Positions 25,158 through 58,085 of a DNA stretch of 64,000 nt are shown here, in pieces. Origin of the DNA: Massospora cicadina (Eukaryota; Entomophthoromycota; Entomophthoromycetes; Entomophthorales; Entomophthoraceae); the NCBI GenBank assembly GCA_022478985.1, contig JAKSZP010013326.1, forward strand, positions 62,001 to 126,000, given 5' to 3'. A program made the position numbers and the translations under genes. Position 1 is the first letter of the stretch. The number at the start of each line of letters is the position of its first letter. The notes below the pieces were generated by a model that worked only from the letters and a program-made list of their open reading frames with translations, was not told where the DNA came from and made no database searches.

Positions 25158-25309
25158 TTATGTGGAAAATCCTGGCAATGCGAGCTCGGGGGGCAGATTT
25201 TGCACCAATGTGGGGCCTTAGCAACTGTGACAGGTAGGTGGTATGTTATTGAGACCAGTCAATGGTTGGAGAATTCCATTTTTGTTGTTGTGAAGTGGGA
25301 GATGTGGGG

Positions 25310-26221: not shown

Positions 26222-26292
26222 CGATTGGGTGAGATTGAGTCTCCCATCAGATCCTCAGATTGAGTGGCCCACTCAGCATGAGCTTCCCAATC

Positions 26293-34500: not shown

Positions 34501-35865
34501 AAAAGAATAGCATAAACCTATGTCTTACTTGGAAAGAGTTTTGTTGTAGACCAGTGTTATTAAATGGTCAATTAATTAACTTTTAACTTAAGAAAGGTAA
34601 AGTTTGAGTGCAAGTAAATTTAAATTTCAAGTTATTACCCAGATAGAGCTGATTTAAGCTTCCTTAGCTTTCCTTGGAATGTGGGGATTTAATTTGAGGT
34701 TTTATTAGTACCATGAAAAATTATTTTACAATACCTCAAAAATTATAGACATATTATTATCAAAATAAAGTGGAGAACATTCAATTGGGTACCTGCTATA
34801 GCATGTAAAGTTTTATTGGGATATGTTCAATAGTTTCTGAGATTACTGCAAACAATATCAATTCCTTAGAACTTTACCTATATAGATAGAAGAAAAGATT
34901 AAGTGGAGTAAAGCTCTCTGGTTAGTATGATTTACTAGGTCTTAAAATTCTATAAACTCTTTAGCTGAATACCAAGTATAGGCAAATGCCAGCTGTTAAC
35001 TTGCTAGCTTAAGTTCAGTGAGAAGGTACTAAATCTTGGTACTTATTTGAAAAATAGAGTATCTTAGGCTATGACTTGTTGAATAGGATTTAAGTTGACA
35101 TTAACACTTTCATGATTTTTTACATATATGCATTCAAAAATGTGGGCTTAATTAAATTTAAAAACGCATATATGGATCCAAAATATAACGGTTAAGTAAA
35201 TCTAGAAATGTATATATGCATCCAAGAAATAAGGGTTCTGTTATGCATTTTATAATTACAAAACCTTCATTTCTTTGATGCATCAATGCATTTTAATATT
35301 TACAGATGCCCCAATTTTTGGGTGCATATATGCAGAAAATCATTGAGAGGGTTAATACTAGCTATAGTTCATGTATCTAACTTATATCAATTAGCATTAA
35401 ATGCAAAAAATTCACTTGGAGTAAAATCACTCATTGATTTGAATATGTTTTTAAATTTGCTTCCATATTGGGAGGCAATTTGAAAACTGATAACAAAATT
35501 GGGGGATACAATTTGGTGTTGCAGTTACATATCTATCATTTACATCCAAAATTAAATTACACTTGATAGCTAAAAAAATCAAAGATTTGTTTATATATAG
35601 ATTAGGTAGCATATTAGTTGTGGTGGTTTAGAAAAATCATCTTATAAATAAATCATTAAAACAAATGTTCTCAACACCTACTCCTAGACTATTTACCAAT
35701 CTCAGATAAACTTGACACAAAGCTTCTATGAAATATATATAATTGTTCAGTTGACTTGATTAGTCCAATGTTTCAGGTACAAAGTTGGCAGTTTTTACTT
35801 ATAGTTTTTATTATTTAGTTGATATTATAAAGCAATTATATGGTAAACTTTCAGATAACTAACTA
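34501..35865. other. AT-rich intergenic stretch
   Basis: About 1.4 kb with only short chance frames. An ATATATGCATCCAAAA-like motif recurs three times at 35123-35230, a weak tandem arrangement. Nothing coding is supported. Confidence 0.35.
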
Positions 35866-35879
35866 TATTACCTCAATTT

Positions 35880-36141
35880 ATTTATTTGGTTGCTTTAATT
35901 TGTCAATCTATACTAAATTTACAGATTGCCATCTACAATAATTCATTTTAGATCTATTTTTAATTGTCCTTTATATACTAAAATTTACTGATTAATATCT
36001 ACAATAAATCATTTTAGATCTAGTTGATTTAATTGGTCAACCTGTGCAAAAACAGTCCACACCTATAATAATTTAGGCTTGTCAGTTATGATCTCATTCT
36101 TTGAACTTACCCCCAGCCATAGGACATATATCATGTCAAAA
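35880..36141 (+). repeat. Minisatellite and conserved end at the Helentron 5' flank
   Basis: Two to three units with CTAAATTTACAGATTGCCAT and AATAATTCATTTTAGATCTA motifs, then TTACCCCCAGCCATAGGACA plus TATATCATGTCAAAAA ending at 36141. This matches 16870-17137 closely and in the same orientation, after which the two sequences diverge. It links the non-autonomous units to the Helentron. Confidence 0.65.
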
Positions 36142-36159
36142 ATTAAAATATATAATGTA

Positions 36160-36730
36160 ATGTTGGCCTATACTCACCAAAAGCCAAATCAAAATATAGA
36201 GATCATATACATCTGGAAAGAGCTTCTCAAGAGAAATCTAGTGATACCCATAATCACCATATGACAGAGTGAAGCGGTGCTGGAAACATAAAGAATCAAG
36301 GTGTCTGAGAGGATTAATAATGGCATCACTACATCTGCAGCTGGGGCAGCTGAGCCTATGAAAGTGGATAATGTAATCACTTCTATATCAATGCTGGACT
36401 GTATAGACATTGATTGTGTGCAATCGCCAATTATAAAGACACATTGGGCAGCAGCTAGTGCACAATTCACTATTACATTTATCAACAATTCATTCAGACA
36501 TAAGTGTGATGTGTGTTACTGTCTATAGTTTCTGCGCTCATTGAAGCCACAAAAGGAAAAAACTTACTGCTGCTTAGTAATACTTTCCCAGAAGAGGCAG
36601 TGGTAGACTTTAAACTGTGTGGTACATATATAGGAAATCACTGGACTCGGACAAAGTGCCCACATTGTCATATTTGAATGGATTTGTGTATCCATCTAAG
36701 CAACATGGGTTACCCAAATTAGATCCAATC
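36160..36730 (+). pseudogene. Helentron Rep/helicase protein, N-terminal segment
   Basis: 36301-36528 is open and includes FINNSFRHKCDVCYCL, matching the N-terminal Cys cluster of Helitron proteins. After a frameshift, 36617-36730 reads VPTLSYLNGFVYPSKQHGLP and KLDPI. The LTR at 36731 interrupts the sequence right after KLDPI; homology resumes at 37891 with an LPFMQI motif. Confidence 0.75.
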
Positions 36731-37885
36731 TGTCAGGCAAACAACGAGTTAGAATTAGACTGGCCTTCCAGTCCAGATGCTGGAGCACCCAGATGGCAAA
36801 CCAGAATGCCAAAGGCACTGCTGCTGGTACAATGGATATGAAACTAGAAAGGAGGTTCACTAATACCTGCTGGTGAGCCAGAACCTTGTATAGGCACATA
36901 TTAAATACCAGATGAATATGGCCGTTAACCCCAAGAGGTGTGTGAATGTCAGTGGGAAAAGCAGTTTATTTTTAAATATAAATAAACTGAATTTTGGGAA
37001 AGGTTTTTAATGGAAAATTTAAGGAAGAAAAATTGACTAACAATTTTTTTCAGTGCAATTCAACTGATTAAATAGTGGTCAATTGATGAGGAAACAAGCT
37101 GGGATTGGGTCCCTTAAGTTTGACAAACCAGCGAATTATTTGTTGATGGGGGCTGATAAGCTCAATGGGAACTGACATTGAAGGATTCAGCAGCAGGCTG
37201 AGTTACTGTCAGTTCAACCTTGAATGCCTGAACTGAGGCTCAACTGAGTTTCTGACAGTTAGCATGAAAGCATATGACCCAATGAGCAGTGGGAATCCCC
37301 CAAGGCCAACCCATGTAGGGGTGATCCCAATTGATTGGGAATGGGTTCAGGATGCCCAATCTGCCCACTCCCAGTCGCTGGGCCATTTTTTTGGTCAAAA
37401 ACATTGCATCAGCTGCAACTCCTGATTTACCATAAGGAGCTTCAAACTATTTTCAATGGTATCTGATGCTACTACCTGCACATCGGGGATGATTCCTGAC
37501 AATTTTAAGAGGGGGTTAATTTTGATGATTACACTGCTGGGAAAATCAAAATTGTTGGCAATTCCAGCCAATAACTCAATCTTCATCCCTCTTGGGCTAT
37601 GCGGATTCTGATTGTCATGCATAATTTCCATCACTTTTGGAGCAATTGATTTTAATTTGGCAATCTCAGCACAGATTTCTATAATCTGTCTAATAAGTTC
37701 AGCCGTGGTAAGTGAAGGTACTGGGGGAGGGGTCCAGAGAGGGAAGGCTGTTACCCAACGCTCGTCTACCACATGGGTGAAGTCACCCTGGGTGACGAGG
37801 GGCATGGCCACCCTCTTCAGACCCTTTTTCTCAGAAATGGGAATAGTGACTGATCTACGCACAGGGGATGTTCCCTGGACTTACA
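36731..37885 (-). mobile_element. Solo chromovirus LTR inside the Helentron
   Basis: 1155 bp with TGTCAGGC... start and ...CTGGACTTACA end, flanked by a perfect 5-bp duplication CAATC (36726-36730 and 37886-37890). It is oriented opposite to the Helentron and is the same LTR family as 1291-2449. Removing it with one CAATC restores continuous coding through PKLDPI and SPHLPFM. Solo LTRs arise by recombination between the two LTRs of one element. The longest frame inside it on the minus strand (37395-37862) has no recognised function. Confidence 0.93.
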
Positions 37886-38103
37886 CAATCAGTGCACATC
37901 TAGTATCACCACATCTGCCATTCATGCAGATATGTCAGTTGCATTACAATAGCAGCTATGGCATCATTGGACAAGTTATTAATGTACCTATTGATCTGGA
38001 CAAAATGGTGGAACAGCTACTGCATCAATTGGATGATGATCAGGCGTTCAATGTCAATATCAAGAAGGAAATGATACATAAAGCTACATATCTGAGCGGG
38101 TGA
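37612..38103 (+). other. Chimeric open frame across LTR and Helentron
   Basis: A 163-codon frame opens in antisense LTR sequence (37612-37885) and continues in frame into genuine Helentron Rep sequence (37886-38103, LPFMQICQL onward). It is a by-product of the insertion and the target duplication. No evidence of expression; recorded because it looks like a plausible gene to automated tools. Confidence 0.6.
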
Positions 38104-39178
38104 TCAAAATTTCAGTGGTAAAAGCTTGGTTACTATTCTTACTTGGTCAACCATTGTATAAACATTACAAGATCACAGTAAACTGATATTCATTTAATGC
38201 TAACATAGTAATCAGTTGTGTGTCAGCCAATGCCACTGGTGATGATCTGATTGAGTATTAACAGTGTGACAGCAGTGCACCAGAGTCAGAGGCTCTACTT
38301 GCAAGGCAGCACACTATGCTGTGAAATGAGGAAAATTGTTTCAACATTGCTCTGGGCCAGCACTTAACTCCGCTGAACATTATTTACAACGTGTATACCA
38401 AAGAACTATTGTTCTCTGTGATATACTACAGTATATCAGGCCGTTCAACTTGATTTTCACATTACCCCATTCATGATCACAATAAGCGAGATATGAAGAA
38501 GTGGTTTTTGTGGTGTCACACCCAAGCACATTTTGTACATGGCCATGAAAATTATGCGGCTGCATGTCATTGAAGGAATATACATTATGTTCTGATGCTT
38601 ATGACAAACTGCTAAATCACTCACAAAATGCTAGGATTGTATGCTCCTCAATGAGTGTGTAGATAAGAACCTTTCATTTCTCAAATCTTTACCAAATTCC
38701 GTGCAGTATTGATTGGATCACAAAAAGAATCTTTTCACAATGATATGCCAGCTGAGCAAGCCATCAATGTTTCTTACACTGAGTGCCAATGAATACATTG
38801 GCCAAATCTTCTCAAGATAATGCATGAGTTGAGTGATGCATTTACCAATGCAAGCGTAACTGATTCACTAGTAGATTTAACTTGATCCATCTGCAGTCAC
38901 TTGGTCAACAAAGATTTCATTATGTGTTGCTTCTATTTCAATAAATTGGTAGACTGTGTGATGGCGTTGCTGAAAGCCAAGGGTAAGATGTATCCTTTTA
39001 GCAAGTATCATGTTGTGGCCTTTTTTCAATGAATTAAATTTCAACACCATGGCAGTCTGCATGTGCACATCCTTTTGTGGCTCAATTGTGATTATCATGA
39101 GCCCATGTCTGAAAATATGCCTAATACCATTCAACTGGTTACCAATCTGTGTTCTGTTAGTCATAATAATTTGCCAGG
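37886..39178 (+). pseudogene. Helentron Rep: HUH nuclease segment
   Basis: Reads PHLPFMQICQL, YGIIGQVINVPIDLDKMVEQL (37905-38010), then a degraded stretch with NIAPGQHLTPLNIIYNVY, NDMPAEQAINVS and SLVDLT motifs, and finally the HUH motif: GSLHVHILLWLN with His-Val-His codons at 39060-39068, followed by SENMPNTIQLVTNLCSVS. HUH His residues bind the metal for the Tyr nuclease. The Gypsy insertion at 39179 cuts the protein just after NNLP. Multiple stops and frame changes lie between motifs. Confidence 0.8.
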
Positions 39179-40311
39179 TGTTGATTTTTGCCCATATTCC
39201 CAGCCTGCTAAATTACCTGGTATTGCTAGGGGAAAATTCCCTAAGGCGAAGTGAATCATAAATTGGTTGGCCCAAGTTTTGGAAGAACTAAGTTTGGTGG
39301 ATTTTGTGATATTCACCTGGTCATATCCATCGGGGATCAATCTGGATGAATACTTAAGATCTCATTGGGTGGAGTTGCTGATGAAATAGGGGCATTTGAT
39401 AGTGATTAACTATCAGGTGTATTAATTGGGATTGGTCAGGTTTCATCACTGACTTTTTGAGAATGAATAGTAAGTTGCAAGGTGAGTGATGCTGCCTGCA
39501 ACTAGCGAATCAATCAGTTGGTGAGTGACCTGCCATAATGGGTAATAAGTCCCATTACCTAAGCAGGTCTCTAGCCAATTACAGTTGGTTCACTTGGATC
39601 GAGAGGAAAATGTTAGGGACACGTTTTCTGACTATTTCCATTTAGGTCTTGAGGATGTCCAATGACAGAATCCTGGCCAGGATGGGGAAGACCATTGCTG
39701 CTGAGATGAGGATGGGTGATTCAATGGCAACAGCTGCCGTTTCATAAAAGAGGTGTCAACTGAGGGTTAGACAGCTGAATTCCCCGCTATATAATTCCCT
39801 AGGATTTACTATATAAAAAAGTAACTTTACAGAGTTTAGACTTTACAGTAATATTATCAAGTCGGTGTATAGTTAGACTATCAGCTTCTATTGTATTGTT
39901 CTATCTCAAGGATATTTACTGCAGAAGGCAATAATTGGAAGACTCTCAGAGAGAAGAGTAAAGACCCGAGTGGAGATCTAGAGATGAAGGAACTACAATC
40001 AGGGTTAGCTGCCAACTGTGTGTTGGGCTGAGAGAGACTGTCACCAGGGTATCTTAGCGAAGATTGGGTGGACAAGAGTATAGGGAACAAATCCCTACAA
40101 GTACAACTTCAAGAGTATTTAATTAGAAGTACTGGCTGATCGTTGAGCCAAAATATAGTTCAATCTCAGCTATGGATAATAGTCTCCATACTATTATCAA
40201 TTAATTATACATTCTATACAATGAAATGAAGTGCACGAGGAAATTGAACTGTGCAGTAGAAAGGTTACTGGGTTGCTTAACGATAACAACCAAAGAGAGT
40301 AAATTTTTACA
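39179..40311 (+). repeat. 5' LTR of Gypsy A copy 2
   Basis: Starts TGTTGATTTTTGCCCATATT and ends AAATTTTTACA; 1133 bp. It aligns throughout with 46309-47445 and, inverted, with 80-1232. The two LTRs of this copy look much closer to each other than the two of copy 1, so this insertion is probably younger. Confidence 0.92.
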
Positions 40312-41493
40312 AGTTGGTGCTCACTAAAGGGGTAGTTGAGTTGAAGAATATAGAAAATGATGTTCCATGAAGATGTTTCCAACTTTAAAAATAAGTTACT
40401 GAAGGGAGTAACAAAGATAGAATGTGAAGAGGATCACGTTCAGTGGCGTTCACTCAGCTCAGCAGTGGAGCTCTGTGTGAAGCAAAATAAAGATACTCAA
40501 GTTTAGGGAAAGGACTTGCAGCCTAGATATGAACTATCTAATGCTGCAAGGAAACCAGTTCCGCTGGACATCTACTTGAGATGAAGAGTATCAGCAGGGC
40601 CAACTTGGGTTGGAATTGGGCTTACTGGAAATAGTCCTGAGGAGCAGTAGAATCAACTCAGGCTGAAATTGGATCCGCTTTAAATAGTCCTGAGGTGAGA
40701 GTATTTAGTTGAGGCATTGGATGGAATAGGAAGTAATCAATCCAGAGAATTAGATTGCCATACCAATGAAGATACAAAAACAAAAATAGGAAATAATTAA
40801 TCCAAGTTAGTTGAGGAAATCATGTGACTTAATAACACTCAATCACTAGTCAGAAGTTGCTGGAGACAAGTTCATCAATTCAGGAGAAATTGGATGAATC
40901 TAATGAGGCCAGAACGACCTGTGTAATCAAGGGTAGCCACAAAGGCTGAAAATCGTTTTCAAGAAAAAAATGATCCAGATAATTGGACAAAACTGTTGTC
41001 TAATGAGATATGAGGATCCAAAAGCATCAGTTGCCAAATAAGAGATGAAATTAGGGCCTGTTGGACGAATAACCTGTTGCAATTAAAGTCCTTATAATTA
41101 AGAGTATTGCCAAAGTCAGCAAGTATAGCCTATACGTGAAGAGACAGCACTGCTGGTCATATAGTGAGAAAGGGCAACACTAATTGGAAGTATTGAGCCT
41201 AAGAGAAAATAGCTGCAATGTTCCCAGAGGACCTCTGAACCATTAAATGGTTGTGTCCTGAGATTTTGGTCAAGTCCTAGAAGAGGACCACTGAACCAAA
41301 TGGTTGGTTAAATCTTAAAAGGATAAGATTCAGAACCATTATAACTGGTAGGTTTAAGTACCTAGGACCCAGTTTGGATGAAGGGGAAAAGAAGGACCTC
41401 TGAAACTTTTTGTAGGTTGCAAGTCCCATTGCAAAAGAAAAATACAAAAAAAATATAAAAAATTAAAATATCGATTTTTATGGTCTATGAGTT
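40312..41493 (+). other. Leader of Gypsy A copy 2 with missing gag and protease
   Basis: The primer-like site AGTTGGTGCTCACTAAAGG opens at 40312. No gag or protease homology follows. Instead there is non-coding sequence with paired ATAGTCCTGAGG motifs (40629, 40685), then at 41225-41460 a block with GGACCTCTGAACCATT-type repeats that duplicates 44260-44460. This suggests template switching or recombination removed gag and protease. Confidence 0.55.
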
Positions 41494-42840
41494 TTGGACC
41501 TAAGAAGCAACAAGAAATCCCAACGGCCAGATGGAGGAAGTTCCACTCTTGATGAGATGAAATTATTGGCTGGGGTAACCAAAAGTATCAACCTATTAGT
41601 TGATCGAGAGCAGCTTGCTGATCTGCCAGAAGACCAGCAGGAGGAGGTGCTCAAACTATTCAAGAAATATTGGGAAGTGTTAACTCAGGACAACCACAAT
41701 TTGGGATGCACACGAGATGTGATCCACAAGGTTGACACCAGGGAAAATTTACTAATAAGGATGAGACTGATCCAAAGATTGAAAGCCACTGAAGCAGTAG
41801 TGGAGGATGAAATCAGCAAACTAGTGAATTTTGGGCTTCTAGTTCCATCATTAAGTCCCTGGGCGAGTCCAATTCTGATTGTAAAGAAGAAGGATGGATC
41901 CAACCGGGTAGTGATTGACTACCAAAGGCTGAACAAAATTATGAAGACGGATTTGTATCCCCTACTGAGGATTGATGATGTGCTGGATTGTTTAGGAGAA
42001 GCGAAGTATTTCTCCACAATGGATCTGATCTCAGGATATTGGCAGATTGACTTGCCAAAGGAAGACCAAGAAAAATGCATGATTATTACTGCACAGAGAT
42101 ATACCAACCAACGAGGATGCCTCAGGGTCTATTCAATGCGCCTGCAACGTTTCAGAAAGCTATGGATGTAATATTAAGTGATTTGAAGTTGTTGTGCATC
42201 TTGGTATATCTGGACAATATCAACGTGTTCAGTAGGACGTTTACTGATCACCTGCACCACTTGGAAGAAGTATCTAAGCAACTGTCCATGGATAACCTGA
42301 AGATCAAGCCAAGGAAATGCCACTTCTTTAAGAAAGAGTTGGAATACCTGAGATTCATAATCAACCACAGTGGATTGCAGCCACAAACCCAGAAGATAGC
42401 AATTATAGAGCATATGGCTGTACTGAAGAGTGTCTGAGACATCCAAGTGTTCCTTGGGATGGTCAGATACTATAGAAAATTTATTTGGGACTTCGCCTGA
42501 ATAGCTGAGCCATTCTTCCATTTATTAAAGGATCAGAAAAAAGGACTTGTATGGAATGAAGAGGCCCAGGACTCCTTCAATGAGTTACGCCAGTATTTGA
42601 TAGATTTGTCAATTCTGAAATATCTGAATTTCATATTGAGAGTTTATTATACATGTTGATGCTTCATTGATGGCGATTGGCTCCATACTGAGCCAAGTAG
42701 ACGAACTTGGGGACAAACATCCGGTGGCATATGTGAGCTGGGCACTCTCAGCTGCTGAGAGGAACTACACTGTGATTGAGCAGGAATGCCTTGCGGTCAT
42801 TTATGCATGCAAGCAATTTTGGGTGTACATCCATTAAACG
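41494..42840 (+). pseudogene. RT and RNase H of Gypsy A copy 2
   Basis: 41494-42171 is open for 225 codons: EEVLKLFKKYWEVLTQD, IVKKKDGSNRVVIDYQRL and YFSTMDLISGYWQID with motif A Asp intact. A frameshift near 42090 moves to 42075-42437: QGLFNAPATFQKAMD, LVYLDNINVFS and HFFKKELEYL. RNase H follows (about 42650-42840: HVDASL, HPVAYVSWALSAAERNY, QECLAVI) with stops. The active-site box is YLDN, as in copy 1, so the second catalytic Asp is replaced in both copies. Confidence 0.85.
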
Positions 42841-42999
42841 CACTTTGAGGTGGTAATGGACCACTCTTCGCTGTGTTGGCTGCAAAATTTAAGAGAACTG
42901 GAAGAATGACTGGCCTGATGGGTACTTAATCTTCAGGCTTATGAAAATGGGATATTCCACTGAGCAGGGGCTTCTCATCAGAATGCAGATGGCTTATCA

Positions 43000-44245
43000 C
43001 AGCTGCCAATGGTCAAGTTGGTATACCCGCAGGTGGATGAGCTATTCCAGAGAATGGTCGAAGGAAAACTTGAGGATGAGCCCTGAGAAATCCAAGGTGC
43101 GCTTTGAAAAGTGATGGAAAACACTGAGACTATGGATGGAAAAGTATTCAAGATGATCAATTGGAAGTGGCTATTATTCCCAAAACCTTTGGAAAGAGAA
43201 GATATAGTACAAGCAGCTCACAAGTTTGTCAGGCATGGAGGCTTGAGGAAAACAACTGACCATGTTTGCCAGTATTATTACTGGGAATTGATCAACTATG
43301 ATGTCACAGATTATCTGGCTTGTTGCGTGGAGTGCCAGCTGCACAAACCACACAAGAATACAATGGGATACTGACTGGTCCAATCTGGATTCACCTGGCA
43401 CATGGTGTCCATTGACGTGATGGGACCGCTGATGATGAGCACTGGGGGAGTCAAGTACATCATAATTGCCATTGACCATCTAATAATGTTGGTCGAGATG
43501 AAGGCCCTAACCAGAGTAGATGCTACCAGTACTGTGAGGTTCATCCTGGATCAAGTGGTATACTTGCATAGATGTCCACAGGTCCTGCTTAGTGACAATG
43601 GGACCAACTTCACATCTCATGTGATCCTGAGGTTAAATGAAATAATGGGGATCCGAGGAGTCATGTCAGTACCATACTGGCCAAAGATGAATGGGCTGGT
43701 AGAATGGGTCAATGGAACGCTGGCCACAACGCTGAGGAACCTAGTCACAGGTAGAACTTCTACATGGGGCATGTACCTGAGTTCAGTGATGTTTGCCTAT
43801 GACATTAGTCATCATATGGCATGGGAAAGACACCATTTGAATTATTATACAGAAGAAAGGCCGCATTGCCGCCGATTTTATAACCAGTGGTGGAACCTAC
43901 GTTGGGGATGAGTACTGAGCAATACTTGAACCAACTGATGTTTATCCTGATTTTTATGCAATTGCAAGCATTGAATACAACCTTTAAGAAAAGGATATGA
44001 GTGAAATCGACGGATGACAAGAAATGACTGGCATTAGAAGAATATTGAATATGGGAAAGAGTTGCCTATTGCAATATGCATGGTTTTGAATGAAGAAACA
44101 AATTAGCTGTGTTTTGGTTGGGTCCATTTAAAGTAATCACCAAGACGGTGGACAATGCTTACTCCATCAAGAATCTCTTGGATGGAAGAGTTGTGAATTG
44201 AGTCCACGCTAAGTATATGAAGCATTGGATCAATGAAAAAAATAA
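43000..44245 (+). pseudogene. Integrase of Gypsy A copy 2
   Basis: 43111-43374 has the zinc-binding HHCC region (AAHKFVRHGG...CVECQLHKPHKN). The catalytic core runs 43402-43911: MVSIDVMGPL (first Asp), VLLSDNGTNFTSH (second Asp) and NGLVEWVNGTLATTL (Glu), with expected DD(35)E spacing. The C-terminal GPF-type domain (GPFKVITKTVDNAYSIKNLL) is at 44125-44190, ending KYMKHWI. Stops separate the three parts. No chromodomain follows, unlike the other Gypsy family in this window. Confidence 0.85.
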
Positions 44246-44259
44246 AAGAGTTCTTGAAG

Positions 44260-44520
44260 GACCAATGAACCATTAAGTTGGTCATGTCCTGATGATTAGG
44301 TCAAGTTCAAAAAAGGACCTCTGAACCAATCTAGATGGTTAAGTCTGAAAAAAGGACCTCTGAACCATGGAAAATTGGCCGGTTTAAGTACCCAGGACCC
44401 AGTTTGGGAAAAAAAGATGGACTGCTGAACTGAAACAAGGTCAAGTCCTATAGTAAAAAAGAAGAATAAAGATAAAGAATTTGATAAAAGATATTGGAAA
44501 AAAGCTTATAAACTGCATAG
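44260..44520 (+). repeat. Tandem block after integrase, duplicated at 41225
   Basis: Three to four repeats of AGGACCTCTGAACCA about 40-54 bp apart, followed by GGTTTAAGTACCCAGGACCC and an A-rich tract. It matches 41225-41460 within the same element and 5890-6180 (minus) in copy 1. Non-coding. Confidence 0.6.
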
Positions 44521-44768
44521 AAAAAAACTGATATAGTTTTATATTTTTATTTTCATTAATTGTCCTTGATACAGGGATGATTCCGCCTATGTCACCTCTT
44601 GGGGAAGGGAGGATGGATTGCGGTAGGAATGAACATCCCATTGAAATTGATATGAAATCAGACGCTAATGAGGGTGAGACCTACACAAAACTATGTTTTT
44701 TGAGTGGACGCCGAGCCCTGAGAAAAAGTGACTAGGGGAAGGGAAATTGAGATGTCAGAGGAAGCCAA

Positions 44769-45727
44769 TCATGAAACCCCAGAGTGGGGAGGAAAGCAAT
44801 AGTATAAAAAGAGGCAACTGGTGGATAAACCCAAGTAATCCTGATATGGCACTGGAGCTGAAAGATTTGTCCTGAGCACTTGCCAATGGGCTTCATCAAG
44901 GACACCAGACATGTGGGCTGGCAACAAGGAAGGGATGCTCAATGGGGGTTGCCAAATCATGCCCCCTATCAACACCATCAGAAGAAGATACCAATGGGAA
45001 GCGCCGAAGAAGAGGTAGTTGTGCAAAGAGCAGATTAAATCCTGCAAGTGGTGACTACAGGCTTCTTGGAAGCTAAAGCTGAATGAACGGTGGAATCCAG
45101 GTGAGGCTGGAAGCTTCATGTACCAACTTTGAAGAACTTGGCCAGCAAAACAAAGAGCATATGCGGCAGTATACCAACCCAGAAGGTTATCAAGATCAGA
45201 GGGATTCAGCGCTAAAGTCAGAGCCTTGGTGACTTGGGCCCGGAGTTCAGTGTAAGGGAGCTCAAAGTGAATACTGTTACCAATTGAGAGCTCAGAGACC
45301 AGAACAGCGGGTTTGTAAAATTGACCAAGTTGAAAAGAAACTCAGGGAGCAGGTCTGACCTGGCAAGAAACAAATGATCCAGAGCAACTGGCATAATCTC
45401 TGGAGCATCTATGATGATGTTTGAAGCATCAGCAAAAGGAGCTAAATCCAGGAGAGTTTTGAAGTCCAACTTTGAAATTGACAGCAGAGGAAAAGTCAGC
45501 CAAGAGTTGTTCAAAACAATAGCCAGCCTGGTTTTGGAGGGATTAGTTACCATTTCTGATAATTCAGTGGAAGGACTAGCCGCTTGTGCAAGATTAGGCG
45601 TATGAGTCCTGGAAGGACTATAAAAGAGGTTCCGTCAAGCATCCTGACTCATCTGCTGGAAGAGATGGAGGTCTGGATAAGATAAACTATTGAGGAGCTG
45701 TTGGTAGTGCGACTTGGAATTTGACAT
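44769..45727 (-). pseudogene. Antisense ORF (aORF) carried by Gypsy A copy 2
   Basis: ATG at 45727-45725 (MSNSKSHYQQLL...), stop after FPPHSGVS at 44769. Better kept than in copy 1: 45553-45218 (111 codons) and 45119-44769 (116 codons) are open. Conserved features are MVTNPSKTRLAIV, PLLSI, LLDLAPFADA, APEIMP, a hydrophobic HLQDLICSLHNYLFFG segment and HMSGVLDEAH. It carries its own TATA-like box at 45756-45763. No family recognised; a structural, membrane-associated or regulatory role cannot be distinguished. A few stops and one or two frameshifts remain. Confidence 0.6.
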
Positions 45728-45755
45728 ATGAGCTGGACAAGAGGGGGATGTCAGA

Positions 45756-45763
45756 CTTATATA
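45756..45763 (-). promoter_or_regulatory. TATA-like box before the antisense ORF (copy 2)
   Basis: TATATAAG on the minus strand, 29 nt upstream of the ATG at 45727, next to a second purine tract (AAGAGGGGGATG at 45739-45750). Conserved with copy 1 at 4701-4708. Confidence 0.4.
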
Positions 45764-46290
45764 GAAGTTGACAAAATGCACTATACAATCCAATAAAGCT
45801 CCAATTTTGGGGAAATTAATCTCAAAATTAATGAGATAAGCTCTCCAAGGGAAGAATTAATAATGACTTATGCCAAGAGGTTATGAGCAAAATAACAAGG
45901 GCGAATAAGAAATAAGTTTTCTTAATTATGCCATGAAATGAACATTGATGGCAAGAGTCTCCTGTCTAGAACAAGGAGAAAATCAGGAAATCAAGGACGC
46001 TGGACCAAGAATCCTGAATATGACATTGGGTCATATACCCTGACAGGGGGAAAACCAGATCCTGGGACTAATACCATCATAAGTAAATCAATCAGCCCAG
46101 CACGATAGCAGGTCATGGGGACCGCTCTCTGAGAAGGCAGTAGCGAGGAGGAAGAGGAAGCTTGCCATATGCCAAAGGTCATCAAGCAGCTTTGAGTATT
46201 GATGAGTGTACTCCGCTTGAACCAATGAAGTATTTGACCAGGTGTCTGAAGTGGTGTTCTCATGCCCTGGTCCTTTTCTCGTTGGAAATC

Positions 46291-46308
46291 TAGGCAAGAG
46301 GGGGGATG
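46291..46308 (+). other. Polypurine tract of Gypsy A copy 2
   Basis: AGGCAAGAGGGGGGATG directly abuts the 3' LTR start at 46309, identical in kind to 1233-1249 (minus). Confidence 0.8.
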
Positions 46309-47445
46309 TGTTGGGATTTTTGCCCATATTCCCAGCCTGCTAGATTACCTGGTATTGCTAGAAGAAAATTCCCTAAGGCGAAGTGAATCAGAAATTGGTT
46401 GGCCTGAGTTTCGGAAAAACTATGTTTGGGGGATTTTGGGATATTTGCCAGGTCATATCCATCTGGGATTGATCCAGATGAATACTTAAGATCTCATTGG
46501 GTGGAGTTGCCAACGAAATAGGGGCATTTGATAGTGATTAACTATTAGGTGTAATAATTGGGATTGGTCAGGTTTCATCACTGACTGATTGGGAATGAAT
46601 AGTAAGTTGCAAGGTGAGTGATGCTGCCTGCAACTAGCAAATCAATCAGTTGGTGAGTGACCTGCCATAATGGGTAACAAGTCCCATTACCTAAGCAGGT
46701 CTCTAGCCAATTATGGTTGGTTCACTTGGATCAAGAGGAAAACGTTAGGGACAAGTTATCCGACTCTTTCCATTTGAGGTCTCAAGGATGTCCAATGACA
46801 GAATCCTAGCCAGGATGGGGAAGACCATTGCTGCTGAGACGAGGATGGGTGATTCAATGGCAACAGCTGCCGTTTTTATAAAAGAGGTGTCAACTGAGGG
46901 TTAGACAGCTGAATTCCCCGCTATATAATTCCCTAGGATTTACTATAATAAAAAAGTAACTTTACAGTTACTAGACTTTACAGTAATATTATCAATTCAG
47001 TGTATAGTTAGACTATCAGCTTCTATTGTATTGTTCTATCTCAAGGATATTATTGCAGAATGCAATAATTGGAAGACTCTCAGAGAGAAGAGTAAAGACC
47101 CGAGTGGGGATCTAGAGATGAAGGAACTACAATCAGGGTTAGCTGCCAACTGTGTGTTGGGCTGAGAGAGACTGTCTAGGGTATCTTAGTGAAGATTGGG
47201 TGGACAAGAGTATAGGGAACGAATCCCTACAAGTACAACTTCAAGAGTATTTAATCAGAAATACTGGCTGAGCGTTGGGCCAAAATATAGTTCAATCTCA
47301 ACTATGGATAATAGTCTCCATACTATTATCAATTAATTATACATTTTTATACAACGCGATGAAGTGCATAAGGAAATTGAACCTGTGCAGTAGAAAGGTT
47401 ACTGGGTTGCTTACCGGTAACAACCAAAGAGAGTAAATTTTTACA
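46309..47445 (+). repeat. 3' LTR of Gypsy A copy 2
   Basis: TGTTGGGATTTTTGCCCATA to AAATTTTTACA, 1137 bp, aligning with 39179-40311. Followed by TCAAG, the probable decayed target duplication, then Helentron Rep sequence. Confidence 0.92.
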
Positions 47446-48020
47446 TCAAGTGATCAGTACAACAATCAAGTTCACCAACATACACTTACTTGTACCAAAC
47501 GAGGTGAAACAACATGCCGCTTCAATATACCCTACTGGCTGATGATCAAGACACAAGTGCTACTGCCAATGTTAAAAGCTGATGGTCGTTGCAGTGGTTT
47601 CCAACTAAAGGCAGCTAAACTGCACAAGCTACTAGAGGAAAAACATTATGACACACTTGGCAAGTTCTATATTGACAATAATATAACAAAGGCACAGCAC
47701 TTGAATATAATCCAATATATGTTAAATCAGCCAACATTGATGTTTAGTGTGACTTCACGGAGATTTATTTTGACACTTTCAATCCATGGATTGCACAAAC
47801 AATGGGCTCTAATAGCGACTTGCAGTTCATACTTGAAGAGTACAGCTGTGCAGCTTATGTAGTTGAGTATGTTAATAGATCAAATTGAGGCATTAGCCAT
47901 CTATATTGTGAGATAATGAAGTTACACCATGAATACCCAGAGAAAGAATATCTACAGTTGTTGAAACAACTCAGCATGAAGTTACTTAACATAGTTGAGA
48001 TGTCATCATAAGAGGCTGCC
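47446..48020 (+). pseudogene. Helentron Rep, C-terminal segment
   Basis: Resumes with SDQYNNQVHQHTLTCTKRG, CRFNIPYW and KTQVLLPML (47446-47570), then 47542-47862 is open for 106 codons (TLGKFYIDNNITKAQHLNI). It continues with NSDLQFILEEYSCAAYVVEYVNRS and EMSS-EAA just before the LTR at 48021. The DLQF...AAYVV-YV segment is the stretch carrying the nuclease Tyr residues in Helitron Reps. Confidence 0.78.
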
Positions 48021-49449
48021 TGTCATAGAAACGGCAGAAGAAGTTTAGACTGACCTGCCAGTCAGGGTGCATAAGCACCCAAAAAGCAAGCCAGAATGCC
48101 AGAGGCATTGCTGACTGAATGAAGTTGTATAGAGCTGGGCATTGGGAAATGACAAATAATTGGTGTAGGACAACAGTGAATATGATGCTGAGAAGAAACT
48201 AAATTGAGGCTGCCCCAGACCCTGGAGGTCTTAATGCAGGGGGTGGAATCACAGAAATAGTTTCAATAAGTTTACCAGTATATAGGGTTGTCTAAACTGG
48301 GGAGATAAGGAGGCGATCCTTGCTTGAAGATGGTGGACATAAGGTCACAAGATTCCAGTATAAAGTTTTCAAAAGTTCATAACACCAGGGTTAAATTGCT
48401 AGAAGTATCTAGCTCACTGAATCCAATCTGACAGTTAGGGGCCATAGTGACCATGAACACTGGTAGAGCCTATCTGGTGTATGGACTGATGGGCCACCAG
48501 GTAAAAGCTATCGGGGATGTGGCCAGAAGTAAATCAACTAGATAAAAATTGATTGGTTTTTGGAGGCAAAATTTCATTGCAAAGGAAAAGGAAGAAAATT
48601 GACCAACAATTTTCTCAGTGCAATGCAACTGATTAAATAGTGGTCAATTGGTGTGGGGATAAGCTAGGTTTGGGACCCTCAATTTCAACCTTACTGGCAA
48701 ATTATTTGGGAATGGGGCAAATAAGTTCACTGGGAACTGACATCAAAGAATTTGGCAGCAGGACAAGTCACTGTCAGTTTGACCTTGAATGTCCAAACTG
48801 AGGCTCAGCTACATTTCTGGTGGTTGGCACAATGAGGTTTGGCCCAATGAGCAGCGGGAATCCCCAAGGCCACCCCATGTAGGAGCAGGCACATTTGGTT
48901 GGGAACAGGTTTGGGATGCCTAACTCACCCATGCCTGGTTGCTGGGCTGTTCATTCAGTCAGAAGCATTGCATTGGACACAACTCTCAATTTCTAGCAGG
49001 GAGCTTCAAAACCTTGTCAATGGTGCCTGATGCTGTTACCTGCCCATTGGGGATGATCCCTGACAATTTTGGGAGGGGGTGATTTTTTGATAGTGATGTT
49101 GGCTAAACAAAAACTGTCAGCAATTCCAGCCAATAGATTAGTCTTCATACCTTCTTGACCATTTGAAATCCAAACATCGGGCTGCTTGCCACTCAATTTT
49201 GTTCCAATCAATTTCATTTTGGCAATCTCATTGCAGATTTTACTAATTCCCCATAACAGTTATGCTGAGGTGAGTGTGGGTACCAGGGGAGGGATCTGAA
49301 ATGGAAGAGCTGTTACCCAGTGCTCATCTACCACGTGGGCAAGATCGCCCTGAGTAATGAGGGTTACAGCCATCCTCTTCAAAACCTTCTTGCTCAGGAA
49401 TGGGCAAATGGCCTGATCAATGCCCAGGGGATGTTCCTTGGGACTTACA
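48021..49449 (-). mobile_element. Long-form chromovirus LTR inside the Helentron
   Basis: 1429 bp, TGTCATAG... to ...GGGACTTACA, flanked by CTGCC (48016-48020) and CTGCA (49450-49454). Setting it aside joins EAA to WYLLHQKMS, as expected for a Helentron. Its outer parts match the 1.16-kb LTRs, but the 48110-48560 block differs and instead matches 63500-63960 inverted, defining a longer subfamily. No internal region is attached, so it is a solo LTR. Confidence 0.88.
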
Positions 49450-51690
49450 CTGCATGGTACTTGCTTCACCAAAAAATGAGTATAGTCAGCGTTGACGTTG
49501 TTTACATTCCTACTGTTTAACCACATGTGATACAGAAGGCTTGCAAGAATAAGGCTGTGATGGACAGAGAACAGTTAGACGAGAACAGCACCAACATCTG
49601 GACTAAAACAATGATTCAGTGTTATGAGGATAGGCCCACGGAGTTAGAGTTGATATGCTAAGCTGGCTTTGTCACTTGGTATATGGCTGTTGGTAACAAA
49701 AAAGAGAAAACGTCAAGGGGACAACAATAACATAGAGTGCAGTGAAGACAACGAGGATGACACAGAGGACATTAATGCATATTCAATCACATAGCATAAA
49801 AGAGACTGTTGTAGGGTTATACACTACACATTTTACAAGACTGATGATATTGTAAACCACAAATGAGAGATGGTCACGTTATATCTACCATTTTTCTGTG
49901 AGGCAGTTGATATAATTGACCATAACACATTTATGGAGAATTATGATGTCAGAGAGGCTGAGATAATGGAGAAGCGCAAACAATATAAATTGAGCACTGA
50001 TATCAAACGTGTGGTCAAGAAACTGCAGCAGATGTGCAAACAGTTTGATGATGAAGATCCATTGGGTGCCCGCAATCAGCGGGAGGAGTTTGTGAAAAGT
50101 CTAGTACAGCAAGGTGGTGTAGAGAATGCAGATGTTTTTTGATGCTTCAACTATGGTGACATCCATGTCTGAAGTTCACCGGTGATCAAATGCAATAGCC
50201 AGAGCTGACTTCTGTCACATGATGCATAGTACTAACTCTAGTCAATGAGAGATACTTCTGGAGGCAACACATCACTTACACACTTAAATTGGAACCAATC
50301 CAGGTTTTCTTCACCAGCCCTGCCAGTAGTGGTAAGACCTATGTGCTGAAACTTGCAATGGAAATATACAATCAGTTCACAGTGCAACACAACTACTTGA
50401 CCAACGTGTTTGTAGCGTGTGCCTCCACTGGCAAAGCTGCCATCAATATCTAAGGCATAACCATGCATTCTGCTTTCAAAATTACAAAATCACATCGGAC
50501 TGGCACAATGTTATAAGAGATTCTGAAAAATTACAGAAATATGTTTGCTGGTGTAAAATGCGTGATAATTGACGAGGTTAGCGTGTTGGATCAGATGTGT
50601 TGAATAAGATCAACTTATGTCTGTAGGAGATCACTGGCATGCATGATCAACCATTTGGTGGCATGAATGTTTTTTCTGCAGTGGCTTTTGCCAACTGCCA
50701 CCAGTTAACGCTACACCTGTTTATTGAGCCCCACGCAGCATGATTTTTGGTGCAGCGCTCTGGCAATTGTTAAACTACTATACACTTCATCAAGTAATGC
50801 GGCAAAGCAATTCTACGCTCTTTGCTGTACTTACTAAAGTTGGCAACGGAGAGTGACTCAATGTTGATGAAATTAAACTCAGAGTTGCAATTCAGAACCC
50901 AACGTTGGTGTAATACAAGCTTGATTGGTGTTGTACATTTGTATCATCAAAATCATAGCATGGACTCATACAACAGCAGTGCTATTGTGACAGAGACATA
51001 TGGCGTTGTGACGACACTTTGATTGGCTACAAGAATCACACTGAAGCCGCTACAGCCCAACAAAAGCTTCACAAAATGAGTGTCATCAATTGGGTGGACT
51101 GCCCTATAAGATCCCACTTGCAGTGGGTTACCCTTACGTGATTACAACTAACATTGATGTTGAGGATGTCATAGTGAATGGCGCGATTGGTGTATTAAAA
51201 ATATAGAGCTGCTCAGTGAAGATGAGCACTTTGCGGAGTTAGAGGCACAGAACAAACTGTCAACATCTGTGGCTACACACAAATAGTGACTCAGACTATG
51301 GATTGAATTCCCACTTGAGATGATGGGCCAGTGATGTCAACTCAAAGCTAAGCCACATGTAATCTGCAAGTGTGAGGTTCTTGACTTCAAGTGGACACCA
51401 ATAACAACGTGCAGTGCCAACATACCACTCAGTCTGATGATCAAATGCCACCGAATACAGTTTCCCATCATGCCAGAGTGTGTGTATCATGATACACAGA
51501 TCTCAAGGATGCACTTTTGATCAAGTTATGTACCAATATGATAAATTACAGCAAAACCAACTAGTTTATGCGGCTTTGAGTTATGTCACATCATTAGATG
51601 GCCTTTATATTATCAATGCCCAAAACGATTTCAAGTTTTATCATGGATTTGGTCAGGCATCTCCTAAAGTTAGAGAGATATGAGATGAGT
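49450..51690 (+). pseudogene. Helentron PIF1-type helicase
   Basis: Starts WYLLHQKMSIVSVDVVYIPT, then a linker (49870-50142 open for 90 codons). Helicase motifs follow: Walker A FFTSPASSGKTYVLKLAM (GKT at 50331-50339, two Gly of the usual GPAGSGKT changed to Ser), CASTGKAAINI and MHSAFKI, Walker B VIIDEVSVLDQM (about 50557-50595), FGGMNVF, TLHQVMRQ (about 50785), and the last motifs MIHRSQGCTFDQVMYQYD and LVYAALSYVTSLDGLYI (51480-51620). It unwinds DNA during rolling-circle transposition. Many stops between motifs. Confidence 0.85.
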
Positions 51691-51699
51691 ACCAGTGAC

Positions 51700-52502
51700 T
51701 GGCCCAACATCCACTGCTGACACTAGTTTCACAAGTAAAAAAGCTTTGTGATTATGTTCCTGATCAGCGTTGTCTTATACTTATCACCACTAATAATGCA
51801 CAAAGCTTGGTCACGCACTCAGAAGACATCTCTACCGATTCCATTATCAACCAATCTGATTACTTGGCAATTAGCGAGATGTGGATGTAAGATTTTAAGC
51901 CAATGCAGGTGTCTGGCTTTAATATGAATTCATATTGCAACACCGCTAAGTGCAGACAAACTGCAACTACATCATTGGTGGCAGAATCATCAAGTCATAT
52001 AGCTGGTGGAGTCACCATATATCGCAACATCAATATCTTCACTGATTGTAACAGAGTTAACTTTGATATTTCCAAGATGAATTTGCAGATCAAAGACCCA
52101 AAGGTTGGTGATGTCTGTCTAGTAAACGTAACAGTCAATGGCATCTTTAGATTCATACTTGGGTGTGTGTACATCCATCCAGGCACAGTATTAGCAGAAA
52201 TTAAGCTCTGTATGTTAAGATCGCTGTTAAAGTACTCTAAAAACATTAAGATTATAACCGAATATGAGCCAGATCTCACTACACCAATCATGATGGTTGG
52301 AGACTTTAATGTTAATGTCTCGCAAGACCATTCGTTGCCCGACTTCATGCTCAGCGAGTTTAATTTGTCTTACATCAAAACTTCTCCAACAACGCTAGGT
52401 AATACATGTATTGATTTAACGTTTACCAGGATTTCGATGTATCCTGTATGCCATTTGTTTTGTACTTTTTGTATCACAGACCCATCATTAATGAAGTTAT
52501 AA
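51700..52502 (+). pseudogene. Helentron AP-type endonuclease domain
   Basis: 51903-52502 is open for 199 codons. It has SSHIAGGVTIYRNI, then a strand-rich core (FRFILGCVYIHPG), PIMMVGDFNVNVSQD (metal-binding and catalytic Asp/Asn of the exonuclease-endonuclease-phosphatase fold) and TCIDLTFTRI, where the usual catalytic His is not visible. The upstream catalytic Glu region is at 51860-51890 (YLAISEMWM, the usual ETW site). This domain downstream of the helicase distinguishes Helentrons from plain Helitrons. Confidence 0.82.
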
Positions 52503-53276
52503 CACAGTAATTATTTGTTTACTTGATTTCTTTCCTGAACCCGACGAAAGGAAAATGTTGGCATCACAAATAAAACATGGAAATCCGAAGAACTTCTTAG
52601 TGTTCAAAAATGATTATGACACATAATATGCTCAAAGAAAATATTACCCGTTATGTACACGTTTATGTACACGTATTCACGTAAAACACACGGCCGTGTC
52701 CATGACACAGCCACATCCCAATTTTTTAAGTTCACTCGAGTATAGATATCTTAAATAAATACCTTTTAAGGCCAAAATATTAAGATTTTAAAGTATAATT
52801 TAAATAAGTTACTTGTCGATATGAATTAGGATCTGATACTCAAATTTTATTCAAAAAATTGCACTATCTGGAAATGGGTGAATAAAGTAACTATTCATAG
52901 AAAGTCAACGGCTTAGGTTAGACTTGGCGCTTATTTAATTCCTTTCCCTTCCTTTCACTTTGTTCTTTCCCTTTCTTTTGGATTTGACCACCATGAGCAA
53001 TTCAGTTCCCTCTAAAAAACATATTAGCAAACTAAAAATCCATAAATATCTTACGAGAACTACACTTGATTGATTTTGGATGAGGCAGAAGGGCTGATTT
53101 AACTTGGTTTGACGAAGTTGGAGGTGAGCAGCTTTGAGCCAAGCTTCGTTAAAGGTCTGTCGGATGATGTTTCCAAAGGCTGAGAATCCAAGGCATCATT
53201 CTCTATTCTTTCATAAGCCCCCAGTTGACTGCCGAGGGGTTGAGCTGAAGAAAATTCGGGCGATAAACAGGCTGAA
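52503..53276. other. Helentron 3' flank and intergenic region
   Basis: Includes the perfect 12-bp palindrome ACACGGCCGTGT at 52688-52699 and an adjacent GTGTC-CAT-GACAC stem at 52696-52708, about 190 bp after the endonuclease stop: a candidate Helentron 3' hairpin. The motif CACGTTTATGTACACGTATT nearby has internal repeats. From 52710 to 53276 nothing coding is supported. Confidence 0.4.
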
Positions 53277-56862: not shown

Positions 56863-58085
56863 TGTTAGGAAGATAGCAAGTTAACTTTTGACCAACCTGC
56901 CAATTAAAGTGCTGAAGCACCCAAATGATAAGTCTGAATGCCAGTGGCACTGCCTTTTGAGCAACTGTTATGATCCAGGAAGGAATTTTGTCACTGGATG
57001 CTCATGTGCCATAATTGTGTATAAAAACCTTGCAAAGAACCAGTTGAACATGGCCATGGGCTTCATGTGTTGTGAAAAATAGGTGGGAAGAGTGGTTTGA
57101 ATTTGAACATAATAAAAAACTGGAATTGGGTAGAGGGATTTTTATTATAAGTTAAATAAAGAAAATTTACCAACAGTTTCTTCAGTGTGATCAACTGATT
57201 TATATAGTGTTCAATGTTGTAGTTTGTCAAAGCATGGATTGGGGACCTCAAATTTTGACCCAACTCAGAAAATTTTATAGGAGGGGAAAAATATCAACTT
57301 CAATCTGAACTGACATCAAAAGAATCAGCGGCAAGCTTAGTCACTAAAAGTTCATCCATGAATGCCTGACTCAAAGCTTTACTGCATTTATGGTGGTTAG
57401 CGCAATGGCGTTTGGCATGACAGGCAACAGGGATCCACCAGGGCCACCCCACATAGGGGTGGTCCCAGTGGGTCAGAAACAGTTTCAGGATGACTAACCC
57501 GCCTGTGCCCAGTTGCTGGGCGTTCATTCAGCCAAGCAGGATTTCTTGAGTGATAATCCCAATTTTTGTAATGAGGGTTTCAAATTCTTGGCAACAATTC
57601 CCAATGGTGATACATGCCCATCAGGGACAAAGCCCAACTAATTCAAGAGGAATTTAGGGTCAGCAACTGTACTTCTTGATGGCTCAATTTCATCATCAAC
57701 TTTGACTAAAAATTCATTATTTGACCCCTTCCAGCTATGAGTTTCACACCCATCAGGCTTTAAACATGTATATTTTGGACATTTTGACTCTAATTTTGAG
57801 AATTCTGCGCCATCAGCTTTATGGCTTTCCATCTAGCTTGTAGGGATGTTGATTTTTGATAATTTCAGCAAAGATTTCCTCTATTTGGTGAACTAACTTG
57901 GCATAGCAAGTGCGGGAATTGAGGAGGAATCTTCAGAGGGAGTGCCATTAACAAGCACTCATCTACCACATGGGCGAGGTTTCCCTGTTTGACAAGGGGT
58001 ACAGCTGCCCTCTTTGGACCAGTTTTTGTTAGAAAATGGAAAAATCTCTTAATTCATGCAGTGGGGACATTCCCCTGAACTTACA
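56863..58085 (-). repeat. 3' LTR of a truncated chromovirus
   Basis: TGTTAGGAAGATAGCAAG at the left end and CCCCTGAACTTACA at the right; 1223 bp. On the minus strand it starts TGTAAGTTCAGGGGAATGTC, as in 1291. The purine tract AAAAAGGAAAGGGTAA (58086-58101 on the minus strand) immediately precedes it, marking it as the 3' LTR of a minus-strand element whose coding region lies to the right. Confidence 0.85.

Follow-up and report, generated by a model that had tools for sequence, protein, structure and literature searches.

Helentrons are rolling-circle transposons whose single protein combines a HUH/tyrosine replication initiator (Rep), a PIF1 helicase and a C-terminal AP-type endonuclease. 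Helitron-type elements move between distant hosts by routes that are guesses, and precedents are known for transfer between animals and microsporidia. The element described here, from the cicada-parasitic fungus Massospora cicadina, has the same Rep-helicase-endonuclease order as the Helentrons of arthropods (Trichonephila, Timema, mosquitoes), but differs from them in its fungal genome, in the decay of all 20 longer copies examined and in a 5' tandem array. The Helitron2 elements of Fusarium and other Pezizomycotina likewise have fungal hosts, a Rep-helicase and asymmetric terminal inverted repeats; no endonuclease domain was detected in the fungal elements surveyed in that work, whereas the M. 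cicadina Helentron has one (PMC5148889). Arthropod rolling-circle elements have also been described in fungal-type insect parasites and read as horizontal transfer: a Hel1 transcript is known from Entomophthora muscae (Han et al. 2019, PMC6544945), and Nosema bombycis carries Lep1 Helitrons (PMC4038834). These are short canonical Helitron sequences, known as one transcript or three copies, whereas the M. cicadina element is protein-coding, has a chromosomal context and is present in tens of copies. The earlier hint that Entomophthora could carry insect Helitrons consists of one transcript (PMC6544945), which could be host RNA. Beyond its anatomy, the main point of the present element is its arthropod affinity in the genome of an insect-killing fungus.

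Anatomy and limits of the element

The window is the whole stretch of 64,000 nucleotides that was analysed (assembly GCA_022478985.1, contig JAKSZP010013326.1, positions 62,001 to 126,000, forward strand). It contains a dead Helentron copy, broken by three inserts, with the following parts:

35434..52727, + strand: Helentron copy, outer limits (6,443 bp with the three inserts excluded)
35873..36142, + strand: 5' tandem array of ~66-70-bp repeats, inside the element and also in other copies
36304..36730, + strand: S1, N-terminal coding part with CDVC and YPSKQHGLP (tblastn, P0137 and P0151)
37886..39178, + strand: S2, DUF6570-like part and HUH part of Rep (profile matches, tblastn)
47446..48020, + strand: S3, Rep part containing CRFNIPYW and, at 47856-47870, the tyrosine pair Y..EY; 53-56% identical to P0137
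49450..52502, + strand: S4, comprising the linker, the PIF1 helicase at about 50292-51640 and the endonuclease, open at 51891-52502

The Helentron motifs listed in the first-pass annotation were found on the + strand in the order given there, and tblastn with the 1,753-aa homologue P0137 placed S1, S2, S3 and S4 on that strand, colinear with a full-length Helentron protein. The proposal of a Helentron with HUH Rep, PIF1 helicase and endonuclease is supported by four lines of evidence: (i) a PIF1 helicase match in S4 (PF05970, E 7.7e-19), above its cut-off; (ii) two ordered Helitron_like_N stretches in two frames of S2 (E 0.002 and 0.003), both below the curated cut-off, the Rep domain being traced by colinear tblastn matches through both the HUH motif (HVH codons at 39060-39068) and the tyrosine pair; (iii) C-terminal homology to the AP-type endonuclease of arthropod Rep-helicase-endonuclease proteins, the endonuclease frame of the window copy giving no Pfam match; and (iv) Helentron-type termini. 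The DUF6570 profile also matched S2 below its cut-off (E 0.0011), and S1 is 59% identical to the spider protein P0008 over 86 aa. The copy lacks the intact frame of an active transposon: S2 has several stops and frame shifts, and S4 was read through 19 in-frame stops and 10 frame changes.

The ends were set at 35434 and 52727 because copies in the same genome place them there: L038, L047, L048 and L049 align without the inserts from window position 35433-35495 to 52727-52730, and their flanks beyond are unrelated. The span first given, 35870..52710 with 5.9 kb of element, was too short: the element begins 436 bp earlier and measures 6.44 kb without inserts. The array at 35873-36142 had been considered as a separate repeat beside the element; the genome copies place it inside.

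Termini and target site

The following terminal features were recognised:

35434..35449, + strand: 5' terminus, TT followed by a degraded palindromic subterminal repeat (10/14 to GACGTGAATACGTC)
52670..52683, + strand: 3' subterminal repeat CACGTATTCACGTA (12/14), inverted relative to the 5' repeat and 44 nt before the end
52688..52716, + strand: 3' hairpin with a 3-nt loop and a 13-pair stem counting G-T, 11 nt from the end

With Helentron termini as presented by Thomas et al. 2014 (PMC4067079) the element shares the palindromic subterminal inverted repeats, lying 2 nt inside the 5' end and 44 nt inside the 3' end, the 3' hairpin and possibly a T-rich target; here the 5' flank is T-rich, with at least 3 T among its last 6 bases, in 9/13 copies. 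The 5' repeat matches at 10-14 of 14 positions in 13 sequences (the window and 12/20 loci; L048 does not fit, the duplicate L051 was omitted and the remaining loci are unscored). The 3' repeat, within the ~38-60 nt from the 3' end expected of Helentrons, matches at 9/14 or better 44-45 nt from the end in 14/20 loci (window 12), the best match lying elsewhere in the other six; 12/14 or better was reached in 4/5000 random 90-mers of the window, a set that may include the element's own repeat. A 3' end motif is common to 20/20 endonuclease loci, the window's included, and six T close the 3' end in 17/20. The 13-pair stem supplies the 3' palindrome of Helentrons, although the folding energy of the 101-nt stretch is not significant (z -1.5; 20/200 shuffles as good).

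No target duplication was seen by eye in L038, L047 and L049; the window's two flanks have TCACTC in common, offset on the 3' side. By analogy with its relatives, the element would have moved by nicking at its termini, unwinding and copying one strand, and inserting in T-rich sites without target duplication. Canonical Helitrons (Helitron1) end in 5' TC and 3' CTRR, whereas this element ends in TTGACG... and ...CCCAATTTTTT; a Helitron2 would lack the endonuclease, which is present here. Comparison of the two ends for long subterminal repeats, made with the earlier 5' end, gave nothing above shuffles, and tRNA genes were not found beside four 3' ends. A junction of a 3' end and a 5' end at L071 was rejected as a head-to-tail tandem, the following sequence matching the inner end of the array in reverse.

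Three inserts and the order of insertion

The inserts that separate the coding parts are the following:

36731..37885, strand not assigned: insert 1, single LTR-like unit TGTCA...TTACA, duplication CAATC/CAATC
39179..47445, + strand: insert 2, Ty3-type LTR retrotransposon, flanks CCAGG/TCAAG; LTRs 39179-40311 and 46310-47445 (93.8% identical, K2P 0.065); reverse transcriptase 41491-42171 (RVT_1, E 8e-08); integrase 43375-43911 (rve, E 2e-06, below its cut-off)
48021..49449, strand not assigned: insert 3, single LTR-like unit of the insert 1 family, duplication CTGCC/CTGCA

Homology resumes beyond each insert, as first noticed, and P0137 is colinear across all three breaks. Indeed (i) at insert 1, residue 153 stops at 36730 and the next match (137-223) starts from 37840, overlapping the insert end, while P0143 and P0147 restart at 37888; (ii) at insert 2, residue 575 stops at 39179 and 576 restarts at 47452; (iii) at insert 3, residue 766 stops at 48020 and 766 restarts at 49452. 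In the other genomic copies, the check that had been suggested, the pieces are contiguous and all three inserts absent: S1 and S2 lie within 10 bp in 17/18 loci holding both, S2 and S3 within 17 bp in 16/16 and S3 and S4 within 10 bp in 14/14, in a survey of 20 same-genome loci where L050 and L051 are one insertion counted twice. The three inserts are therefore real, but only the Ty3 element is bounded by two LTRs. The perfect duplication at insert 1 and the near-perfect one at insert 3 (4/5) were correctly described, whereas CCAGG/TCAAG agree at 3/5, for which the chance of 3/5 or more is about 0.11; thus the empty sites, not the duplication, settle insertion.

Insert 2 has paired LTRs, reverse transcriptase before integrase and a purine tract ahead of the 3' LTR. 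Elements of this kind make up 73% of the transposable-element sequence in M. cicadina (PMC9584336), and nothing notable distinguishes it from other Ty3 LTR elements of Entomophthorales. Relatives of insert 1 lie in the window at 1291-2449, 3054-4210, 48021-49449, 62595-64000 and about 56883-58085, and a complete small LTR element is nested in another Ty3 copy. The Helentron is supported as the oldest layer, as had been supposed, by the nesting and by the divergence of S4 among five Helentron copies (K2P 0.111-0.150), against 0.065 for the Ty3 LTR pair.

Copies and decay in the genome

The endonuclease is found at no fewer than 84 places on 81 contigs of the 1.47-Gb genome, the window's included. 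A first look had returned 2,432 candidates, a figure that does not serve as a copy number, since scoring covered 40 of them and the query includes the tandem array with its diverged relatives in the window. All 20 other longer loci examined contain stops and are decayed. C>T change reaches 34% at CpG, against 5-12% at other C, in the copies compared, so that C-to-T decay is strongest at CpG; cytosine methylation would leave such a pattern. The divergences are those of a family that probably expanded in one main burst, a reading that may be biased because the dated copies were chosen by likeness to the window's 5' part.

Arthropod relatives and probable origin

Among 16 endonuclease matches, 14 carry organism names (13 spider and one Rhodnius), and in a second set of 52 matches 31 are named. 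The identity of the endonuclease rises to 75% with spider copies and, over 48 residues, to 88% with Rhodnius. All 45 named relatives are arthropod, and no named fungal protein occurs in either set, which come from annotated proteins and metagenomes, with comparison at the protein level; repeat-masked fungal genomes could hide fungal relatives, and the 23 others, without organism name (2/16 and 21/52), might be fungal. A tree with 39 of the 52 relatives, in which 16 rows, P0137 and P0139 among them, likewise lack a name, groups the window copy with Trichonephila and P0139 (support 100/98). In a tree of the fast-evolving linker (136 columns), 12 fungal rows join four rows of the stick insect Timema (100/100), the Timema rows as a group of their own being weakly supported (60/68). 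Identity between fungus and Timema is 69-72%, against 47-55% between Timema and spiders. AU tests against Timema plus spider without the fungus gave only p 0.048 and 0.037, for groups chosen after seeing the tree.

We infer an arthropod donor, and arthropod to fungus as the most likely direction, because the closest known relatives sit in insects and spiders. Most probably, then, the Helentron came by horizontal transfer from an arthropod, burst and decayed in the fungus and was later cut by LTR elements. The lineage would have entered an entomophthoralean fungus, directly or via an intermediate; one main burst would have followed, then methylation-like C-to-T decay, and last the window copy would have been broken by two single LTR-like units and one Ty3 element. 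A virus was considered as the vector: the endonuclease query on viral contigs gave no relative, and the full-protein profile gave at least 25 loci with PIF1-type matches of 23-32%, none indicating a viral vector.

The tree by itself does not give the direction, the branch between the fungal and Timema nodes being short (0.095). That short branch would suit the reverse course, in which the Helentron has long been in fungi, whether entomophthoralean or other zygomycetes, and such parasites passed it to insects and spiders, as would the unnamed rows, if fungal, and the Helentron proteins reported from fungi, with Mucor circinelloides included in the endonuclease alignment of PMC4067079. This course is nevertheless unlikely: the fungal rows, from one genome, form one star-like group (99/94), which is surrounded by diverse spider, mosquito, ant, wasp and butterfly copies in the 39-relative tree, and the matches include no named fungal protein.

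The assembly was made from spores removed from cicada bodies (PMC9584336), and sequencing fungi from cadavers could yield contigs of insect DNA or chimeras. Such an artefact is very improbable here, as the Ty3 and small-LTR families cutting the Helentron also adjoin a tyrosinase on the same contig; this open reading frame, 16 kb upstream, is of entomophthoralean type (its six best named matches are in Entomophthora muscae, 33-49% identity). Insert-family sequence occurs in 5/20 other Helentron loci, the endonuclease is spread over the many contigs counted above and, a weak point, the CpG depletion of S2 (0.21) and S4 (0.42) brackets that of the whole window (0.30). Fungal contamination of arthropod assemblies is argued against by two contexts: the Helentron fragment of the Timema protein P0183 adjoins sequence that matches DNA polymerase delta subunit 3 chains, and in a spider a fragment is part of a gene named GABA-B receptor subunit.

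An ordinary, vertically inherited fungal Helentron serving as a safe target for LTR elements has the anatomy and layering right but is scarcely tenable given the arthropod affinity and the lack of a fungal relative among the matches; the repeated safe target of the first-pass annotation is unsupported, as the same LTR families occur elsewhere in the window and LTR elements there also insert into each other.

With transfer from an arthropod as the preferred reading, entomophthoralean parasites might even take up and amplify host Helentrons and act as go-betweens in their patchy spread among spiders, stick insects and bugs, a rather doubtful extension. As M. cicadina carries a protein-coding arthropod-type Helentron in its chromosomes, in multiple copies and with fungal LTR elements layered over it, host-to-fungus transfer becomes directly testable in cicadas and other Entomophthorales. 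Some endonuclease frames elsewhere in the genome are without a stop, so that not every copy need be dead.

Structure of the Helentron and of its insertions

The coding sequence of the Helentron, a decayed rolling-circle element (35434-52727, +), is split by three inserts into four pieces, S1 to S4, the last of which comprises the linker, the PIF1 helicase and the endonuclease.

Features of the window
1291-4210, minus strand: complete small LTR element (1.16-kb LTR, 604 bp, LTR)
18866-20242: tyrosinase ORF
ends at 36730, plus strand: S1, Helentron piece
36731-37885: insert 1, single LTR-like unit
37886-39178, plus strand: S2, Helentron piece
39179-47445: insert 2, Ty3-type element (LTRs 93.8% identical, K2P 0.065)
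47446-48020, plus strand: S3, Helentron piece
48021-49449: insert 3, single LTR-like unit of the same family as insert 1
49450-52502, plus strand: S4, Helentron piece

The order of the four pieces on one strand, proposed in the first-pass annotation, was borne out by tblastn, as all are colinear with a 1,753-aa homologue (P0137). Indeed, the matches to this protein pass from residue 575 to 576 across insert 2, stop and resume at residue 766 across insert 3, and end at residue 153 and restart at 137 around insert 1, where the second match overlaps the insert end. Of the profiles expected by that annotation, PIF1 is found in S4 (E 7.7e-19), but Helitron_like_N is represented by two weak stretches, in order, in S2 and nowhere else. 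DUF6570 weakly matches the start of S2. The endonuclease frame of the window itself has no Pfam match; its homologues are part of arthropod Rep-helicase-endonuclease proteins. The S4 read used as query is interrupted by 19 in-frame stops and changes frame 10 times, so this copy is dead.

The reading of a Helentron lying beneath three younger insertions holds, but the three inserts had all been described as LTR-bounded, and only insert 2, in which reverse transcriptase and integrase are arranged in Ty3 order, has two LTRs. Inserts 1 and 3 (73% identity over 870 bp) are lone units of a family whose complete member is the element at 1291-4210, which has a perfect GTGGT duplication and sits in another Ty3 copy. 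Likewise, of the 5-bp duplications said to be perfect or near-perfect, that of insert 1 is perfect and that of insert 3 matches at 4/5 positions, but that of insert 2 at 3/5. The notion of the Helentron as a 'safe target' for LTR elements is not supported. Open frames on the minus strand were also observed: insert 1 has one of 161 aa, and insert 3 has one of 80 aa and one of 104 aa, the longer extending beyond the insert end. In the Ty3 insert, two antisense frames (190 and 138 aa; 44769-45634) occupy the stretch that separates the integrase from the 3' LTR; the 138-aa frame has no Pfam match. A LINE-type element (22425-27204, -; reverse transcriptase, E 2.5e-33) is present, with more long frames around it.

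Other copies and element termini

The assembly containing the window (1.470 Gb, 16,968 contigs) provided 20 Helentron loci, retrieved from scored places; two of them (L050 and L051) are one insertion counted twice, with identical flanks. S1 and S2 are at most 10 bp apart in 17 of the 18 loci holding both (in L040 the first part of S2 is missing), S2 and S3 at most 17 bp apart in 16/16, and S3 and S4 contiguous in 14/14. The additional copies needed to fix the ends were found: L038, L047, L048 and L049 span the element insert-free, starting at positions equivalent to 35433, 35434, 35495 and 35452, respectively, and ending at 52727-52730. The 5' end is TT-GACGTGAATACGTC (10-14 of 14 matches in the 13 sequences scored, including the window; L048 was excluded for its poor fit), and the 3' end motif ...CACAGCCACACCCCAATTTTTT occurs with 0-4 mismatches in all 20 endonuclease loci, window included. 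In 14/20 loci, an inverted subterminal repeat is found 44-45 nt before the 3' end. These termini are those of Helentrons according to Thomas et al. 2014 (PMC4067079).

Flanks past the 3' end differ among loci, except for a ~110-bp sequence directly past it, common to four loci (L055, L058, L062 and L064), which begins near GTTTGGCCGAG (GTTTTTCTGAG in L062) and may be a favoured target repeat. It has a tRNA-like look, but ARAGORN found no tRNA gene in it at these loci.

The endonuclease search of the assembly gave at least 150 scored matches among 250 candidates, at no fewer than 101 places. At least 84 of these, on 81 contigs and including the window, have at least 54% identity, and at least 15 match at 27-39%, the longest open frame among them having 595 aa (contigs C2955, C9428, C4554, C8181 and 11 others); the latter may belong to another Helentron family or to LINE endonucleases. 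Two dispersed units, 80% alike, lie at 16602-17127 (+) and about 21641-22174 (-). Both contain about 70-bp tandem repeats, ending CCATAGGACAT..., and since these repeats are ~70-75% like the Helentron 5' array and an outer palindrome (GACAT...ATGTC) beside A/T runs is similar to the Helentron subterminal repeat, the units may be non-autonomous Helentron relatives.

Age and decay of the copies

Five copies of S4, window included, are K2P 0.111-0.150 apart, and the mean among 16 copies of S2 is 0.154, with one identical pair. Most departures from the majority base are G>A or C>T changes, and the C>T fraction is 34% at CpG, against 12% at CA and 5-8% at CT or CC. This fits a single burst followed by methylation-type decay, though copies resembling the window had been chosen. 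At 0.065 between its LTRs, the Ty3 insert postdates that burst. Stops occur within the matched parts of all 20 loci; some endonuclease frames elsewhere in the assembly are stop-free.

Arthropod affinity and candidate horizontal transfer

The endonuclease has 16 protein relatives: 13 from the spider Trichonephila (57-78% identity, the matched parts spanning 27-95% of the query), one from Rhodnius and two from JGI without organism name. S4 has 52 relatives, and all 31 with an organism name are arthropod (Trichonephila, Parnassius, mosquitoes, Temnothorax, Cotesia, Microplitis, Timema, Spodoptera); 21 are unnamed. In a tree built from the window copy and 39 of the 52 (16 of those 39 unnamed), the S4 of the window groups with Trichonephila and the unnamed relative P0139 (100/98), inside a broader arthropod and unnamed set. 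Timema was omitted there because its rows span 7-20% of the query. Over the fast linker, identity of the window copy is 69-72% with Timema and 49% with Trichonephila, and that between Timema and Trichonephila is 47-55%. In a linker tree of 29 rows, with the 11/20 fungal loci of sufficient length and 17/52 relatives, the 12 fungal rows group together (99/94) and are joined by four Timema rows (100/100), with the spider outside; the AU test against the alternative was marginal (p 0.048 and 0.037). Across the 20 fungal loci, endonuclease identity is 64-75% with two Trichonephila proteins and, over about 48 residues, 63-88% with Rhodnius.

Contamination, on the fungal or the arthropod side, was considered as the source of this likeness. 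The LTR families cutting the Helentron, however, also adjoin the tyrosinase, whose top six matches, self aside, are from Entomophthora muscae (33-49% identity); next, among the best 120 of 300, come unnamed rows and other early-diverging fungi. On the arthropod side, the Helentron fragment of the Timema protein P0183 adjoins a match to DNA polymerase delta subunit 3 chains, presumably human, and the Trichonephila protein P0005 is named as a GABA-B receptor subunit. The arthropod affinity, which is what makes the finding interesting, is read here as a candidate horizontal transfer of the Helentron into an insect parasite.

In published work, the Helitrons surveyed in Pezizomycotina are without endonuclease (PMC5148889); fungal Helentron proteins are on record, with Mucor circinelloides within an endonuclease alignment (PMC4067079). 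Microsporidia and animals are reported to have exchanged transposons horizontally (PMC4202319), the Lep1 Helitrons of Nosema being one case (PMC4038834). The genome of Massospora cicadina measures 1.489 Gb (GC 41%, 92% TE; PMC9584336) and that of E. muscae 1.03 Gb (PMC11105155). A single Hel1 transcript from E. muscae has been taken as a hint (PMC6544945); neither 'Helitron' nor 'horizontal' occurs in the main text of the E. muscae genome paper (PMC11105155), and no description of this transfer was found among the open-access papers on Helentrons or Helitrons in Entomophthora and on horizontal transfer in Massospora, mostly at the level of titles and abstract openings. Four Timema protein models (P0179, P0182, P0183 and P0186) have one Helentron linker fragment in common, for which exonisation or intron retention is possible.
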